Assembly (NCBI RefSeq): GCF_008085905.1
Contig: NZ_VSFF01000004.1
Location: forward strand, 1-64,000
DNA length: 64,000 nucleotides
Direction: 5' to 3'
Origin: Actinomadura syzygii
Lineage (GTDB): Bacteria; Actinomycetota; Actinomycetes; Streptosporangiales; Streptosporangiaceae
The notes under the pieces are model-generated. The model saw only the letters and a list, made by a program, of their open reading frames with translations, was not told where the DNA came from and searched no databases. Shown piece by piece: positions 1 through 28,677 of the stretch. Every line of letters begins with the position of its first letter. The first letter of the stretch is position 1. The translations under genes and the position numbers were made by a program.

Positions 1-113
1 GTTACTCACCCGTTCGCCGCTCGAGTACCCCCGAAGGGGCCTTTCCGCTCGACTTGCATGTGTTAAGCACGCCGCCAGCGTTCGTCCTGAGCCAGGATCA
101 AACTCTCCATTAA
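1..113 (-). rRNA. rrs: 16S ribosomal RNA, 5' end only
   Basis: Read on the minus strand, this is the 5' end of 16S rRNA: the universal segment GAGTTTGATCCTGGCTCAG, then the GACGAACGCTGGCGGCGTGC helix region and the V1 loop, ending at GAACGGGTGAGTAAC where the window begins. The gene runs off the left edge, so only about 110 of roughly 1,500 nt are present. The exact mature 5' end is uncertain by a few bases. The V1 hairpin, with its CCCCTTCGGGGG tip, is typical of Actinobacteria. Confidence 0.97.
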
Positions 114-5773: not shown

Positions 5774-6154
5774 TCAGATGTCGACCTCTGCCCAGACGAC
5801 CTTGCCTCCGGTGACCGGGTCGGCGCCCCAGGAGTTGGCGAACCGGTCGACGATGAACAGGCCGCGGTGCGACTCGTCCAGCGGGCCGGGGACGGTCAGC
5901 CGCGGCAGTTGGGCGGCGCGGTCGCGGACCTCTACCCGGATGCGCCCGGCGCCGCGCAGCAGCCGCAGTTCCAGGGCGGTGCCCGCGTGCCGGACGGCGT
6001 TCGCGACCAGCTCGGCCACGATCGCCGTGACGAGCTCCTCGCGGTCCATCAGGGCCCAGGTGCGCATCGTGCGGGCGGCGAGGCGCCGCGCGTACTCGAC
6101 CGCCTCCGTCTGAGGCGCCGCGCGCAGGGTGGTCTCGGTCATGGGGTCGGTCAC
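5774..6154 (-). CDS. RsbW-like ATP-binding protein (anti-sigma serine kinase family)
   Basis: This 126-aa protein is a single HATPase_c_2 (GHKL) domain. The N-box reads ELVANAVRHA (about residues 47-56), followed by a glycine-containing lid (RGLFIVD) and a closing strand GKVVWAEV. Family members bind sigma factors or STAS proteins and phosphorylate the latter on serine. It lies downstream of the STAS and phosphatase genes on the same strand, giving the classical switch module: kinase, antagonist and phosphatase. About 215 bp separate it from the STAS gene, filled by three tandem 81-bp repeats. ATGs for residues 1 and 5 are both possible starts. Confidence 0.85.
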   Translation of the reverse strand: MTDPMTETTLRAAPQTEAVEYARRLAARTMRTWALMDREELVTAIVAELVANAVRHAGTALELRLLRGAGRIRVEVRDRAAQLPRLTVPGPLDESHRGLFIVDRFANSWGADPVTGGKVVWAEVDI

Positions 6155-6173
6155 TCCGCCCGCTCGCCGTTCT

Positions 6174-6254
6174 TCATCGTGCCCTACCTTTCGGAGAGGC
6201 CGTCGCCGGACCGCCGGCCGGGAGGCCCGGTGATCCTCGCTTCGCCGCGGTCAT
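6174..6254 (-). repeat. 81-bp repeat / 26-codon ORF, copy A
   Basis: On the minus strand this copy reads ATG to TGA as 26 codons, beginning MTAAKRGSP and ending KGRAR. Its ATG overlaps the TGA of copy B (ATGA, 6251-6254). A GAAAGG purine run near its 3' end precedes the RsbW-like gene by some 35 nt. The 5' third is nearly identical to copies B, C and D, while the middle diverges without indels. Whether it is translated is unknown; see the finding on this family. Confidence 0.5.
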
Positions 6255-6331
6255 CGGAACCCGCCTTTCCGGCGGGCAACCCCCGGACCCCCGGGCAGGG
6301 CGCCCGGTGATCCTCGCATCGCCGCGGTCAC
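6251..6331 (-). repeat. 81-bp repeat / 26-codon ORF, copy B
   Basis: This second tandem copy starts with GTG and again has exactly 26 sense codons (MTAAMRGSP at the start, KGGFR at the end). Its stop codon overlaps the ATG of copy A by the 4-nt ATGA arrangement, and GGAAAGG sits 9 nt before that ATG as a plausible ribosome-binding site. Together A and B look like translationally coupled units rather than random repeats. Confidence 0.5.
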
Positions 6332-6362
6332 CGGAACACGCTCCTCGCTTCGCTGCGGTCAT
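6332..6362 (-). repeat. 81-bp repeat, truncated copy C
   Basis: Only the 5' end of the repeat is present (MTAAKRGA, then divergence) before copy B begins. Its ATG at 6362 lies 8 nt after the STAS gene's stop codon. By chance it is in frame with copy A, so a 62-codon ORF spans all three copies; I read that as a by-product of the tandem arrangement. Confidence 0.45.
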
Positions 6363-6370
6363 GGGGCGCC

Positions 6371-6706
6371 TCAGCGCCCCTCGGCCGGGGTCTCCTCGGG
6401 ATCGTCGATCAGGAACCGGTCGAGGCCGGTGGTCCGCAGCACGTTCTCGACCCGGCCGTAGGCGCCGGTGACGGTGAGCGTGGCGTTCTGCGCACGCGCG
6501 TGCTTGTACGCCCGGACGAGGACGTTCAGACCGGAGGAGTCGCAGAAGTCGACGGCCGTGAGGTCGACGACGACCGCCCGCTCACCGGCGTCCACCAGCT
6601 CGGTCAACCGGGACCGCAGCTCGTCGGAGGAGTGCAGGTCTATGGAGCCGCGCGCGGCGATCGTCGCGCGGCCGTCCTGTCGTGTCGTGTGCAAGGCAAG
6701 CCCCAC
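6371..6706 (-). CDS. STAS-domain anti-anti-sigma factor (RsbV-like)
   Basis: The 111-aa protein is a single STAS domain with the phosphorylation loop DFCDSSGLNVLV; the serine of DSSG is the expected target of an RsbW-type kinase. Unphosphorylated family members bind the kinase and free a sigma factor. The GTG start at 6706 is chosen because AAGGTGGGG lies just upstream and it removes a 20-residue extension unlike the family; the longer form would begin at 6766 inside the phosphatase gene. It follows the SpoIIE-type phosphatase gene by 31 bp and so is probably cotranscribed with it. Confidence 0.88.
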   Translation of the reverse strand: MGLALHTTRQDGRATIAARGSIDLHSSDELRSRLTELVDAGERAVVVDLTAVDFCDSSGLNVLVRAYKHARAQNATLTVTGAYGRVENVLRTTGLDRFLIDDPEETPAEGR

Positions 6707-6737
6707 GCCACCCCACCTTACCGATTGTTGGTCTCCA

Positions 6738-9023
6738 TCATGACGCCCGCAGAACGATGAGGGCAACGTCGTCGTTTGACGGCTCCGGGCCGAAGTCCCG
6801 CACGGCTCGCTGGATGCGGGCGGCGACGGCCCCCGCGCTCAGCCCGGTGCAGTCGGCCAGAAGGCGTTCGAGGCCGCGCCCGTCGCCGAGCAGCCGGCTG
6901 CCGGAACGCCGCTCGGTGACGCCGTCGGTCACGCACAGCAGGACCTCGCCGCGGCGCAGCTCGACGGTGTCGGTGTGGAACTCGACTCCGTCGAACACGC
7001 CGAGCAGCGGCTGCGGCGACGCGACCTCGCGTACCTCGCCCTCGGGGTCGAGCACCAGCGGGGGCGGGTGGCCCGCACTGGTCAGACTGATCGTCACGCC
7101 GTCGCGGCGGCGCCGGGCCGCGATCTCGCCGTGCAGGAGGGTGAGCAGGCGCCCGCGCTCCCCCTCGCCGAGGATGAGCCGGTTGAGGCGGCCGAGCACG
7201 GCGGGGACGGACATGTCCTCGGCGGCGAGGATGCGGAGCGCGTGCCGGGCGAGGCCGGTCACGGCCGCGGCCTCCGGGCCGGTGCCGCACACGTCGCCGA
7301 TCGCGAACCGCCAGCGGGACGCGGGCGCGGCCCCGCCGGGCCGCTGCCCGCTCTCGAAGACGTCGTAGAAGTCGCCGCCGACCTCGCTGCCCTCCCCCGC
7401 GGGCTCGTAGACGACGGCGACCTCCAGGCCCGGGATCTCGGGGATGGCGGGCGGCAGCAGGCTGCGCTGGAGCGCGCTGCTCATGGCGGTCTGCGCGGAG
7501 AACAGCCGGGCGTTGTCGACGGCGAGGGCGGCGCGGCGGCTGAGCTCCTCGGCCAGCTCGACCGCGCTGCGCGGGAAGCGGTCGCCCGCCGGGCGGCCGA
7601 TGACGATGGTGCCGATGCGGCGGCCGCGGGCGACCAGAGGGAAGGCGTAGACCTGGTCGGCGGCGGTGTCGCCGGCGGCGGCGCGGACGTCGGCCGGGGC
7701 GGCGGCGAACCCGTTCCACGGGCCGGGGACGTCCGCCGGCGGGGCGGCGCCCGCCTGTTCGAGCAGCTCGCGCAGCCCGTCGGCGCGGTTCTCGTCGGCG
7801 TGCCAGACGTAGGCGAGCCGGTCGGGCTCGGCCTCGGTGACGGTGTAGACGGCGCACCAGGTGGCGAGGCGCGGCACGACGAGCTGGGCGACGAGCGCCA
7901 TCGTCCGCTCCTGGTCGAGCGTGCCCGCGAGCAGGTCGCTGGCCTCGGCGACGAAGCTGAGCCAGCCGCGCCAGGACCGTTCCAACTCGCCGACCCTGGC
8001 CTTCTCCAGGGAGAGCGACATCTCGTCCGCCAGGCGGCCAAGCCGGACGCCGTCGGCCTCGGCGAAACGGCCGGATGCGGACGAGACCGCGACGACCAGT
8101 CCGGTGAGGCGGCCCTGCGACTCCAGCGGCGCCGCGGCCAGCGACCGCGCCTTCAGCGCCGCCGCGGCCGGGTCGGACGCGTCGGCGGCGACCCAGGGCG
8201 CGCCGGTGCGGGCCGCGGGGCCGAGCCCGGCGATGGACAGCTCGCCGAGCGGCAGCTCGGCGGCGGTGCCGACGGAGGCGCCCATGATCAGGCGGCCGTC
8301 GCGCTCGGTCAGCAGGACGGCCGCGCCGTCCGCGCCGAGCACCTCGCGGACGGTGACGACGCCGTCCTCCATGGACTCGAGGGCGGCGGGGGAACGAAGG
8401 AGCCGGTCGCCCGCGACGGGGACCTCGCCGACGCCCTCGGCCATCCTGCCGTCCCGCGCGGGGCCCGCGCCGTCGCGTTCGGCCTTCGCGTCGCGTCCCG
8501 CGCGCTCCAGGGCGCGGTCGCGGGCGGCCTCGCGCCGCGCGTCGCCGCGGGCGGCCGGCGACGGGCGCTCGCCCGCGGCCTCCCCCTCGTACGATCCGGG
8601 CGGCGCGGACGGGGTCGCCCCGTTCGACGCGCCGGGCCGGGGCAGCCGGAACCAGACGCCCTTGGTGCGGCGGTCGTAGGACACGCCCCAGGACTCGGCG
8701 AGCCGCGCGATCGACGGCAGCCCGCGCCCGCTGGACGCGGTCACCCCCGGCATCTCGATGCCGCGGGTGGGGTGCCGGTCGCGGACCTCGACCCTGATGT
8801 CGCCCGCCTCCAGGTGGAGGGACACCTCGAAGGACGTCCCGGCGTAGGCGATCGCGTTGGTGGCGAGCTCGCTGGTGGCGAGGACGGCGTCGTCCGCGAC
8901 GTCGTCCAGGCCCCAGTCGGCGAGGACCTTGCGGACGAACCGGCGCGCGTCCGCCACCGCCGCCGCGGCGGACGGGAACGTCGCCGACGCCGTCTGCCGA
9001 TCCAAGAGTCGCCCTTCGCTCAT
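6738..9023 (-). CDS. SpoIIE-family PP2C phosphatase with RsbW-like and GAF domains
   Basis: The 761-aa signalling phosphatase is expected to dephosphorylate a STAS anti-anti-sigma factor. Domains in order: an N-terminal GHKL ATPase (about 10-150; N-box ELATNAIAYA, G-box SGRGLPSIA), a charged Ala/Arg/Glu linker (about 150-205), GAF-like sensor 1 (about 205-345), GAF-like sensor 2 (about 355-500), and the PP2C-type SpoIIE domain (about 520-760). The metal and catalytic motifs GGDFYDVF, IGDVCGTGPEAA, SAGHPPPLV, VTDGVTERR and NDDVALIVL are all present. It therefore carries its own kinase-like domain, so it may both phosphorylate and dephosphorylate partners. The STAS target gene is immediately downstream, supporting a single switch operon. 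Confidence 0.93.
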   Translation of the reverse strand: MSEGRLLDRQTASATFPSAAAAVADARRFVRKVLADWGLDDVADDAVLATSELATNAIAYAGTSFEVSLHLEAGDIRVEVRDRHPTRGIEMPGVTASSGRGLPSIARLAESWGVSYDRRTKGVWFRLPRPGASNGATPSAPPGSYEGEAAGERPSPAARGDARREAARDRALERAGRDAKAERDGAGPARDGRMAEGVGEVPVAGDRLLRSPAALESMEDGVVTVREVLGADGAAVLLTERDGRLIMGASVGTAAELPLGELSIAGLGPAARTGAPWVAADASDPAAAALKARSLAAAPLESQGRLTGLVVAVSSASGRFAEADGVRLGRLADEMSLSLEKARVGELERSWRGWLSFVAEASDLLAGTLDQERTMALVAQLVVPRLATWCAVYTVTEAEPDRLAYVWHADENRADGLRELLEQAGAAPPADVPGPWNGFAAAPADVRAAAGDTAADQVYAFPLVARGRRIGTIVIGRPAGDRFPRSAVELAEELSRRAALAVDNARLFSAQTAMSSALQRSLLPPAIPEIPGLEVAVVYEPAGEGSEVGGDFYDVFESGQRPGGAAPASRWRFAIGDVCGTGPEAAAVTGLARHALRILAAEDMSVPAVLGRLNRLILGEGERGRLLTLLHGEIAARRRRDGVTISLTSAGHPPPLVLDPEGEVREVASPQPLLGVFDGVEFHTDTVELRRGEVLLCVTDGVTERRSGSRLLGDGRGLERLLADCTGLSAGAVAARIQRAVRDFGPEPSNDDVALIVLRAS

Positions 9024-26959: not shown

Positions 26960-28600
26960 ATGAGGCCGATCGAGGCGCTGCTGGAGATCGCCCGGGACGA
27001 GGGCGTGACCCGGATCTTCGGCAACCCCGGCACGACCGAGCTCCCCCTGATGGACGCCCTGGTGGACGCCCCCGACCTGGAGTACGTGCTGGGCCTCCAG
27101 GAATGCTCCGTCGTGGCGATGGCCGACGGGTACGCGCGGGCGACCGGGCGGACGTCCCTCGTCAGCCTGCACGTCGCGGCGGGCGTCGCGAACGGGCTGA
27201 TCGGGATGCTGAACGCGCTGCGCTCCCGCACCCCGATGGTGATCGTCGCCGGGCAGCAGGACAGGCGGCACCTCATCCAGGACCCGATGCTGTCCGGCGA
27301 CCTGGTGGGGCTCGCGGCGGCGGCGACCAAGCAGGCGATCGAGGTGCAGCACGCCTACGACCTGCCGATCGTGCTGCGGCGCGCGTTCGCGCTGGCGGCC
27401 CGGCCGCCCGCCGGACCGGTCCTCGTCTCGGTCCCGATGGACCTGCTGGACGAGGCGACGGACGTCGCCGTCCCGGCGCGGTCCCCGGTGTCCGGCCCCG
27501 GCCCGGCCGACGTCGCGGCGGCGGTGGAGCTGCTCGCGGCGGCCGAGCGTCCGGTGATCATCGCGGGCGACGCGGTCGGCCGCACCGGCGCGGTCGCCGA
27601 CCTCGTCGCCCTCGCCGAGCGGCTCGGCGCCGCCGTCCACCACCAGCCGATGAACGACGGGATCGACTTCCCCACCGGGCATCCGCTGTACGCGGGGATG
27701 CTGGTGCCGCGCAACGCCGCCATCCGCGAGACCCTCTCGCAGTACGACGCGGCGCTGATCGTGGGCTGCCACGCCTTCATGGCGCACCATTACACGCCCG
27801 GGCCCGCCGTGCCCGACGCGCTGCCGATCGTCCAGCTCGACGAGGACCCGGCGGAGATCGGCCGGAACTTCGCCGTCCGCGAGGGCCTGACCGGCGACCT
27901 GCCGGGGACGCTGCGGGCGCTCGCCGACCGGCTGGACGGCCGCGTCCCCGACGCGCGGGAACGCGCCGCGCGGCTCGCCGAGCGGCACGCCCGGCTGCGG
28001 GAGGGGCCCGAGTCGGCCGCGCTGGCGGCGTACGGGCCGTCCCCGATGGACCCGGGGGCCGCCGCGCACGCCGTCGCCGCCGGGCTCCCGGACGACGCGA
28101 TCGTCGTCGAGGAGGCGATCACCACCGGGCTGAAGCTGCGCGCCGTCCTGCGGCAGGACCGTCCCGGGTCGTACGTGCACACGGTCGGCGGCGGGCTCGG
28201 CTGGGGCATCGGCGCGGCGGTCGGCACCCGGCTCGGCAGCGGGGACCGCCCGGTCATCGCCGTCCTCGGCGACGGCTGCGCCATGTTCGGCCTCCAGGGC
28301 CTGTGGAGCGCAGCCCGCTACGGGACGCCCGTCGCGTTCGTCGTCATGAACAACGGCGAATACCGCACGTTGAAGAACACTCTCGACGAAGGCGGCGGCG
28401 CATCGGCCAAACACGGGCAGTATGTGGGCATGGACCTCGCTCCTCCCGCGCTCGACTGGCAGAGCGCCGCGCGGCTGTTCGGCATCCGCTCCGTCCGCCC
28501 CGGCTCGGCGGACGAGCTGCGCGACGCCGTCGCCGCCGTCAAGGACCTGGACGCCCCCCTCCTCATCGAGGCCCCGATCACCGGCCACGAGCCCCGATGA
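26960..28600 (+). CDS. ThDP-dependent enzyme, benzoylformate-decarboxylase-like
   Basis: The 546-aa enzyme has the three-domain ThDP fold: Glu48 in LQECSVVAMADGYARATG activates the cofactor, the ThDP/Mg motif runs from GDG (437-439) to NN (464-465), and the middle domain is intact. Overall spacing follows benzoylformate decarboxylase (MdlC). His71 in LHVAAGVAN corresponds to the catalytic His70, but Thr25 in NPGTTELP replaces Ser26 of the Pseudomonas enzyme. A decarboxylase or carboligase for an aryl or branched 2-oxo acid is likely. The ATG at 26960 follows AAAGGCAGGA. Its TGA overlaps the start of an 81-bp repeat ORF. Confidence 0.85.
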   Translation: MRPIEALLEIARDEGVTRIFGNPGTTELPLMDALVDAPDLEYVLGLQECSVVAMADGYARATGRTSLVSLHVAAGVANGLIGMLNALRSRTPMVIVAGQQDRRHLIQDPMLSGDLVGLAAAATKQAIEVQHAYDLPIVLRRAFALAARPPAGPVLVSVPMDLLDEATDVAVPARSPVSGPGPADVAAAVELLAAAERPVIIAGDAVGRTGAVADLVALAERLGAAVHHQPMNDGIDFPTGHPLYAGMLVPRNAAIRETLSQYDAALIVGCHAFMAHHYTPGPAVPDALPIVQLDEDPAEIGRNFAVREGLTGDLPGTLRALADRLDGRVPDARERAARLAERHARLREGPESAALAAYGPSPMDPGAAAHAVAAGLPDDAIVVEEAITTGLKLRAVLRQDRPGSYVHTVGGGLGWGIGAAVGTRLGSGDRPVIAVLGDGCAMFGLQGLWSAARYGTPVAFVVMNNGEYRTLKNTLDEGGGASAKHGQYVGMDLAPPALDWQSAARLFGIRSVRPGSADELRDAVAAVKDLDAPLLIEAPITGHEPR

Positions 28601-28677
28601 CCGCTGCGAGGCGAGGATCCCCGAGCCCCCTCCGAGGGGGCCCGGGGGTCGTTCTCTGGAGAGGTAGGGCCTGGTGA
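28597..28677 (+). repeat. 81-bp repeat / 26-codon ORF, copy D
   Basis: This copy starts on the stop codon of the ThDP enzyme gene (ATGA, 28597-28600), runs exactly 26 sense codons (MTAARRGSP at the start, RGRAW at the end) and closes TGGTGA. The GTG inside that (28674) is in frame with the IclR gene, and GGAGAGG precedes it by a typical distance. The design is the same as for copies A and B at 6.2 kb, in an unrelated locus. Confidence 0.5.

Follow-up and report, generated by a model that had tools for sequence, protein, structure and literature searches.

A MIRU-like interspersed repeat with target-matched hairpin stems at operon stop/start junctions of Actinomadura syzygii

The window, i.e., the 64,000-nucleotide stretch of Actinomadura syzygii contig NZ_VSFF01000004.1 (assembly GCF_008085905.1) analyzed here, harbours on its minus strand an ORF coding for a STAS-domain protein (6371–6766; PF01740, 1.1e-19; stop codon TGA at 6373–6371) and, downstream of it, a gene for an RsbW-like ATPase (5774–6154; PF13581, 7.2e-10). 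Three units of a repeat, all on the minus strand and recognized from the sequence, are located between both genes: truncated copy C (6332–6362), which matches the head motif and consists of head and loop only (31 nt up to the start of copy B), the 77-nt copy B (6255–6331) with a GTGA head and a tail ATGA that is at the same time the head of copy A, and the likewise 77-nt copy A (6178–6254) with an ATGA head, its tail ATGA at 6177–6174 and a GAAAGG placed 9 nt ahead of this tail ATG; repeat spacing and motif additionally delimit copies A and B. RNAfold predicts a first hairpin for copy B (6304–6334, minus strand), formed by CCGGTGACC and GGATCACCGG flanking the loop, in agreement with covariation in other host copies. 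A diverged member of the family, copy D, is found on the plus strand (28597–28673; tail GTGA at 28674–28677; locus L070) with two mismatches to the head motif and a 26-codon mini-ORF. Ahead of the array, a perfect 7-bp hairpin, GGGGCGC TGAG GCGCCCC (6363–6380, minus strand; RNAfold), holds the STAS stop codon itself in its loop, and the contig starts inside a 16S rRNA gene (1–113, minus strand; Rfam RF00177).

A first-pass annotation of this DNA had described copies A and B as 26-codon ORFs overlapping by ATGA, and both were seen again on the minus strand, one with a GTG start (6331–6251; 26 aa, MTAAMRGSPGALPGGPGVARRKGGFR), the other with an ATG start (6254–6174; 26 aa, MTAAKRGSPGLPAGGPATASPKGRAR) and also contained in a 62-aa ORF starting at copy C. 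The 81 bp given there for the unit holds as ORF length; since the direct repeats are spaced by 77 nt, the true unit measures 77 nt, the shared ATGA having been counted twice. Further details were recovered as described, namely the start of truncated copy C (6362) 8 nt past the STAS stop (TGA 6373–6371), the GGAAAGG ending 9 nt upstream of the copy A ATG, and GCT at codon 3 of copy D (28597, plus strand).

Copy A sits at the start codon of an 8-codon leader ORF (MKNGERAE*; 6151–6177, minus strand) between the STAS and kinase genes, the TGA of which overlaps the GTG of the kinase gene. Searching 40 genomes of the genus for this region yielded 30 loci (host plus 29 relatives), of which 25 contain the leader at up to four mismatches; this conserved ORF is possibly a genuine coupling leader. 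The repeat is restricted to the host (three units) and genome G010 (one unit), 28 of the 29 relatives lacking it (the 25 loci with leader were scanned by script, the other five by eye), and the STAS–kinase gap of several relatives is occupied by other, unrelated sequence. Because only two of the 30 loci carry the repeat, the array represents a recent addition. A proposed role in setting the kinase:antagonist stoichiometry is not borne out: the site is one of about 60, G010 is the sole carrier among the 29 relatives, and no special role of this kind is therefore indicated.

Overall, the family comprises about 70 copies in the host genome and is patchily distributed in related genomes. The head motif (up to two mismatches) occurs at 68 places in the host versus none for the reversed control pattern, a loop pattern not demanding RTG at 66 places versus two for its reversed control, and BLAST yielded at least 42 matches (40 of 253 first-look candidates scored). 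Within the window, a looser motif (three mismatches) matched six times versus a shuffled mean of 1.82, three of these matches being copies A, B and C, each with no mismatch. For family-wide tests, a set of 163 copies was compiled; at least one of them (L152, a Y1 locus) is a chance match, and varieties located off RTGA are also included. The frame test was run on the 148 copies with a tail, the arm test on 133 first and 22 tandem copies. Head-to-tail length is 77 nt in 90 of the 148 copies, several of the other tail lengths (47, 104–108) probably being mis-called tails, and arrays consist of 2–4 units.

To follow the family across genomes, covariance model R1 was built from an alignment of 47 host copies, which contains none of copies A, B and C and omits 22 of 69 host contexts (14 without recognized tail, 8 second in an array or odd). 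R1 also reports weak matches outside the family, and genome counts at E 1e-4 are upper bounds because about half of 30 inspected loci have no clear loop. At this threshold, matches were obtained in at most 45 of 60 genomes of the genus (host included; none in 15), numbering 72 in the host (G000), 49 in G010 and 0 to 72 across the genus; the best match reached 1e-9 or better in 17 of the 60. Genome G003 has 21 matches, and both that were inspected (L094, L245) belong to a variety not at RTGA. In the order, matches are spread over at most 23 of 150 genomes and 8 of 39 genera, and in the class over at most 7 of 296 genomes (host counted in each case), only one of the latter outside the host's family. 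The loop segment CAGCGGAGCG is duplicated at two loci of other genomes of the genus (L088 and L089, around 1516). In G315, from another family, the loop motif lies within extended, almost perfect stems whose sequence is unrelated (L246, 1490–1560, plus strand; L247, around 1516, minus strand), both without second hairpin; this arrangement is perhaps a simpler ancestral form.

Although the loop pattern does not demand RTG, 65 of its 66 host places are at RTGA, the remaining one at AAGA (L039). First copies have TGA at the head in 62 of 63 cases, preceded by at least 60 open codons in 51 of 63, and last copies begin an ORF of at least 60 codons in 51 of 55, these open-frame counts being without control in a G+C-rich genome where other frames are often open too; the tail reads RTGA in 50 of 55. 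Neighbouring genes could be named at 10 of 39 eligible sites, and the majority resemble partners in an operon (e.g., permease/permease, OppC/OppD-type, CbiC/methylase).

In 5′ to 3′ direction, the final codons of the upstream gene are followed by RTGA, CC and the conserved loop GSRGCGRAGCGA; then come GG, a bulged A and the complements first of RTGA and next of those final codons. Behind a linker there is a G/C hairpin closed by CTGGGGG/CCCCCAG, after which GAAAGGNAGG and some 5 nt lead to the RTG of the next gene. Hairpin 1 spans the upstream stop codon, and the second, G/C hairpin precedes GAAAGG. In the 47-row alignment, 90.2 % of cells are paired versus 81.3 % in shuffles, and 91 cells display two-sided changes versus 35.1 in shuffles, none of 500 shuffles being as high and slid-structure controls falling to 14–31; as the structure was drawn by hand from the same 47 rows, the score is favoured, above all for the cells paired. 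Complementarity to the anti-Shine-Dalgarno (anti-SD) sequence, for which the generally known sequence was used because the host assembly yielded no 16S 3′ end, extends over at least 5 nt in 41 of 55 tails versus 4.7 % of random positions, with GAAAGG 9 nt ahead of the start in 31 of 55. Heads show such complementarity in 35 of 63 cases and GGAGG in 27 of 63, consistent with a displaced native SD. Identity with a described RNA family was rejected, no Rfam match at the repeat attaining the gathering score: the window gave only the 16S fragment at that score, and six copy-bearing loci gave three sub-gathering matches only, one of them at the repeat of L013 (mir-512, E 0.21).

Eight host sites (S1–S8) were traced in relatives by joining the flanks at RTGA, searching 30 relatives and aligning 20 fetched stretches. 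G010, with 92–95 % identity at the compared flanks (contiguous match), is empty at five sites (S3, S5–S8), filled at two (S1, S2) and retains a relic at one (S4). Since a close relative lacks the element at five of eight tested sites, such comparisons indicate that the element is very probably mobile, with precise loss in G010 instead of gain in the host possible at individual sites. The relic (L137) is truncated at its 5′ end and consists of the second hairpin and SD alone before the start codon. At S2, S5 and S6, gcgtc-RTGA is found in an empty relative, and gcgtc flanks the element on either side in the filled site; other empty relatives have gcctg or gcctc at S2 and S6, and the pre-start duplication is clean at only these three of the eight aligned sites. 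Head and tail of S3 differ from each other and from G010, the head of S7 is unlike the one aligned empty relative (which the tail resembles), and S8 has cccg at both head and tail versus cgag or cgcg in three empty relatives. From these mismatches, head-side nucleotides may come partly with the element. A copy at the S8 gene pair in G033 (L077, around 1516, minus strand) has a tail that keeps the gcgcg of empty relatives and a cccg head. Across nucleotides −5 to −1, head and tail agree at 196 of 290 positions in the host (126.7 permuted, sd 8.4), 151 of 200 in G010 (96.0, sd 6.4) and 133 of 195 in other genomes (115.9, sd 4.0; highest of 2000 permutations also 133).

The 3′ arm of hairpin 1 matches the local upstream gene. 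In the 133 first copies, arm and upstream flank (−1 to −9) form 919 of 1197 possible Watson–Crick pairs versus 628.8 (sd 14.5) after permuting the arms between copies, and the excess stops near −8. Among the 22 host copies with a host-unique arm, seven match perfectly, five at five of six positions and ten at four or fewer. The 22 second copies in tandem arrays match the flank chiefly at −1 to −4 and are hardly re-templated at −5 to −9, and outside RTGA stems of arbitrary sequence enclose the same loop (L083, L087, L246, L247). Non-Watson–Crick cells comprise 49 G–U and 17 A–C versus 59.9 and 40.2 permuted. Over 33 ortholog pairs, which are interdependent (the same host copy may be paired with more than one genome) and among which separate insertions at one site may occur, one-sided stem changes break pairing in 46 cases, keep it in 20 and are unpaired throughout in five; two-sided changes keep it in nine, several of these at sites that were probably entered independently, and leave one of the two partners unpaired in five. 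As one-sided changes mostly break pairing, functional upkeep of hairpin 1 is not apparent, and its stem would rather have formed at insertion and decayed since.

Whether the mini-ORF is itself a gene bears on the first explanation to be weighed, according to which the repeat is a translated coupling module, i.e., a 26-codon peptide unit selected to ferry ribosomes over the intergenic gap and to set stoichiometry. The prevalence of the 77-nt length, the ORF ending exactly at the tail TGA in 98 of 148 copies, the SD-like sequences ahead of head and tail, and the description of MIRUs (mycobacterial interspersed repetitive units) as coupled by −4 overlaps in a 2025 review (PMC12548453) all speak for it. 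However, the 58 copies of other length distribute 31/8/19 over length modulo 3 (0/1/2), so that only 19 are in frame where chance predicts one third, and ten equal-length ortholog pairs reveal no third-position excess (25/22/24 substitutions over the codon positions), with 18 of the changed codons synonymous and 40 of the 58 non-synonymous. Neither 26-aa peptide gave a Pfam match, and empty relatives manage without the unit. A coding mini-gene was rejected on frame test and substitutions, which also do not uphold the suggestion that the synonymous variation seen between copies is a sign of translation; ribosomes could cross by way of the −4 overlaps, as the review says of MIRUs, but selection on the mini-ORF is not apparent, and the coupling module as a whole appears improbable. 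Of what the first-pass annotation would have taken as refutation, the frameshifts and the missing synonymous bias were largely observed, but the positions are strongly tied to gene ends, so the repeat is not an ordinary non-coding one either. The alternative offered there, a mobile family using stop-start overlap, is supported by its dispersal and agrees with the RTGA positions as well as with the empty and filled sites in relatives. A selected cis-regulatory RNA, whose two hairpins, the first at the stop and the second at the ribosome-binding site, act as translational switch, would explain the stem covariation (91 versus 35.1) and the predominance of G–U over A–C; its 3′ arm might pair with the stop region or a like-sequenced next start, and is predicted to pair with the tail in some folds (L042, L059), a promoter in the repeat being a further option by analogy to the MIRU-bearing senX3-regX3 spacer, which drives independent regX3 expression according to PMC4213456. 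Copy numbers from 0 to 72 across species of one genus, unrelated neighbouring genes between sites, ortholog stems in which breaks (46) outnumber both the one-sided (20) and the two-sided (9) changes that preserve pairing, the limited flank match of tandem second copies and the missing Rfam family render such a switch unlikely.

The flank match itself could also have arisen after insertion by quasi-palindrome correction, with template switching during replication perfecting the arm and the arm having no part in insertion. Arms that match arbitrary flanks, also off RTGA elsewhere (L083, L087, L246, L247), are in line with this, but the tandem second copies, though maybe too young, have hardly been re-templated at −5 to −9, and we give this explanation a rather small chance. 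As to the mobilizing enzyme, Pfam searches were confined to PF01797 (Y1 transposase) and PF00078 (reverse transcriptase), the comparison with copy number being made by inspection. PF01797 is absent from the host, G010, G026 and G013, the source of most RTGA-type copies inspected, and its 16 of 60 genomes of the genus have at most nine R1 matches each. The small hairpin repeats, their burst-like copy number and their arrays would suit a REP-type palindrome moved by RAYT (Y1 tyrosine transposase); given the absence of PF01797 from these four genomes, on which RAYT was rejected, the strict RTGA site and the flank-matched stem, this origin is highly improbable. PF00078 is present in 22 of 60 genomes (one each in G013 and G026) and absent from the two richest genomes, the host and G010, on which retromobility by a host-encoded reverse transcriptase was rejected. 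A phage or plasmid origin was rejected as well: phages and plasmids contained nothing matching one copy (from L045), and viral contigs did not contain one exact pattern.

Dispersal, site specificity, empty sites, stem covariation and SD-like tails, all obtained by sequence comparison, make it likely that the family is a mobile, non-coding short repeat of MIRU type inserting at operon stop/start RTGA; how it inserts and affects expression, and that an enzyme acts on it in trans, is what we infer. The element would insert in gene orientation at an RTGA where the stop of one operon gene overlaps the start of the next. The upstream gene would still terminate at the TGA of the element head, and the downstream gene would begin at the second RTG, in the element tail, served by the element's own GAAAGG SD after the strong hairpin 2, leaving both neighbouring genes apparently intact. 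Hairpin 1 would hold the upstream stop codon, its 3′ arm complementing the final codons of the gene ahead; this pairing would be made at insertion, the arm either being copied from the target or guiding the element to a matching one, and the stem would decay thereafter. The 26-codon frame, which ribosomes may still cross, would then arise incidentally from a length of 77 nt with RTGA at either end. More tentatively, and with the odds rather against it, the element may represent an undescribed insertion mode, writing or reading its target by pairing; every new copy would then hold a 3′ arm complementing about 8 nt plus RTGA of the gene entered, and the element would in this way reach ribosome-binding/start sites of operons at little apparent cost to either gene and with an enzyme outside the known mobile-element classes.

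Several known systems share individual traits with this family. In the guide pairing of IS200/IS605 and the EBS–IBS pairing of group II introns, part of the element base-pairs with target sequence immediately 5′ of where it inserts; here, in contrast, about 8 nt and RTGA pair, pre-start nucleotides are partly duplicated, and the two genomes of highest copy number have neither Y1 transposase nor reverse transcriptase. MITEs, BOX and RUP are non-autonomous short repeats, from which the present family differs by its coding-frame junctions and its own SD-like tail; no autonomous partner was identified in the searches for Y1 and reverse transcriptase. REP/REPIN elements with RAYT are likewise small palindromic repeats of uneven spread that tolerate G–T in stems (PMC3733652), but lack the RTGA site in gene orientation and the locally matched stem, and no Y1 transposase occurs in the host or G010; at the stem foot, some heads of the inspected loci read gcgtc-ATGA and others not (REP tags are GTAG or CGTC).

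The closest likeness is to MIRUs (Supply et al. 1997, as cited in PMC12548453), described in that review as apparently mobile elements that enter start codons, place an ORF of their own at a spacing of −4 and probably affect the target gene little, so that the claim of no described family like this does not hold. Shared are a size of about 50–100 bp (here 77 nt in 90 of 148), dispersed and tandem occurrence (here arrays of 2–4), start-codon insertion with −4 overlap on both sides (here RTGA at 65 of 66 heads and 50 of 55 tails), and mobility, which the empty and filled sites in relatives suggest here too. MIRUs are also described with an internal ORF coupled to the neighbours; in the present family, an ORF ends at the tail TGA in 98 of 148 copies, without coding constraint. 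In contrast, MIRU arms look constant, whereas the 3′ arm here varies and matches the local upstream gene. The hosts also differ: the tuberculosis senX3-regX3 spacer contains MIRU units of 77 and 53 bp (PMC4213456, PMC2453075), limited to M. leprae and the tuberculosis complex according to PMC4213456. These senX3-regX3 MIRUs were compared from their published description, an exact-primer scan for the tuberculosis spacer retrieving only two unrelated records. The MIRU292 sequence, as printed in PMC7977185, resembles the family consensus weakly (local score 21, a value also attained in 36 of 1000 dinucleotide shuffles), so the element is likened to MIRU by how it works and not by descent. The MIRU292 core (up to one mismatch) is present in 13–20 copies in each of three genomes (G361, G473, G507) of genus g6, which we infer to be mycobacterial. 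MIRU-like units lie around 1500 at L281, L286 and L290 of three g6 genomes, directly upstream of a gene reading MIEEALFDAEEKMEKAV, presumably frr; the copy at the frr start of L290, a MIRU292-core copy, lies between ATGATC repeats, which are clear only there among the three loci. Literature on MIRU-like, intercistronic or interspersed repeats contained no such element in other actinobacteria among the matches listed, and GCGAAGCGAGGATCA was not found verbatim in print. By analogy, the element is MIRU-like in behaviour and a new variety with target-matched stems, for which descent from MIRU is not claimed; start-codon insertion with −4 overlap is already known from MIRUs, and the target-matched hairpin stem is what sets the present variety apart.

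MIRUs form the basis of tuberculosis strain typing, and no mobilizing enzyme is named for them in the available text of PMC12548453, PMC4213456, PMC2453075 and PMC7977185. Mini-ORFs that look conserved at operon junctions can be by-products of insertion, which calls for caution in their annotation. With sites polymorphic between two species 5–8 % apart at the compared flanks, the present family would be an active relative of MIRUs, and its empty/filled pairs together with a readable target rule would make the insertion mechanism testable.
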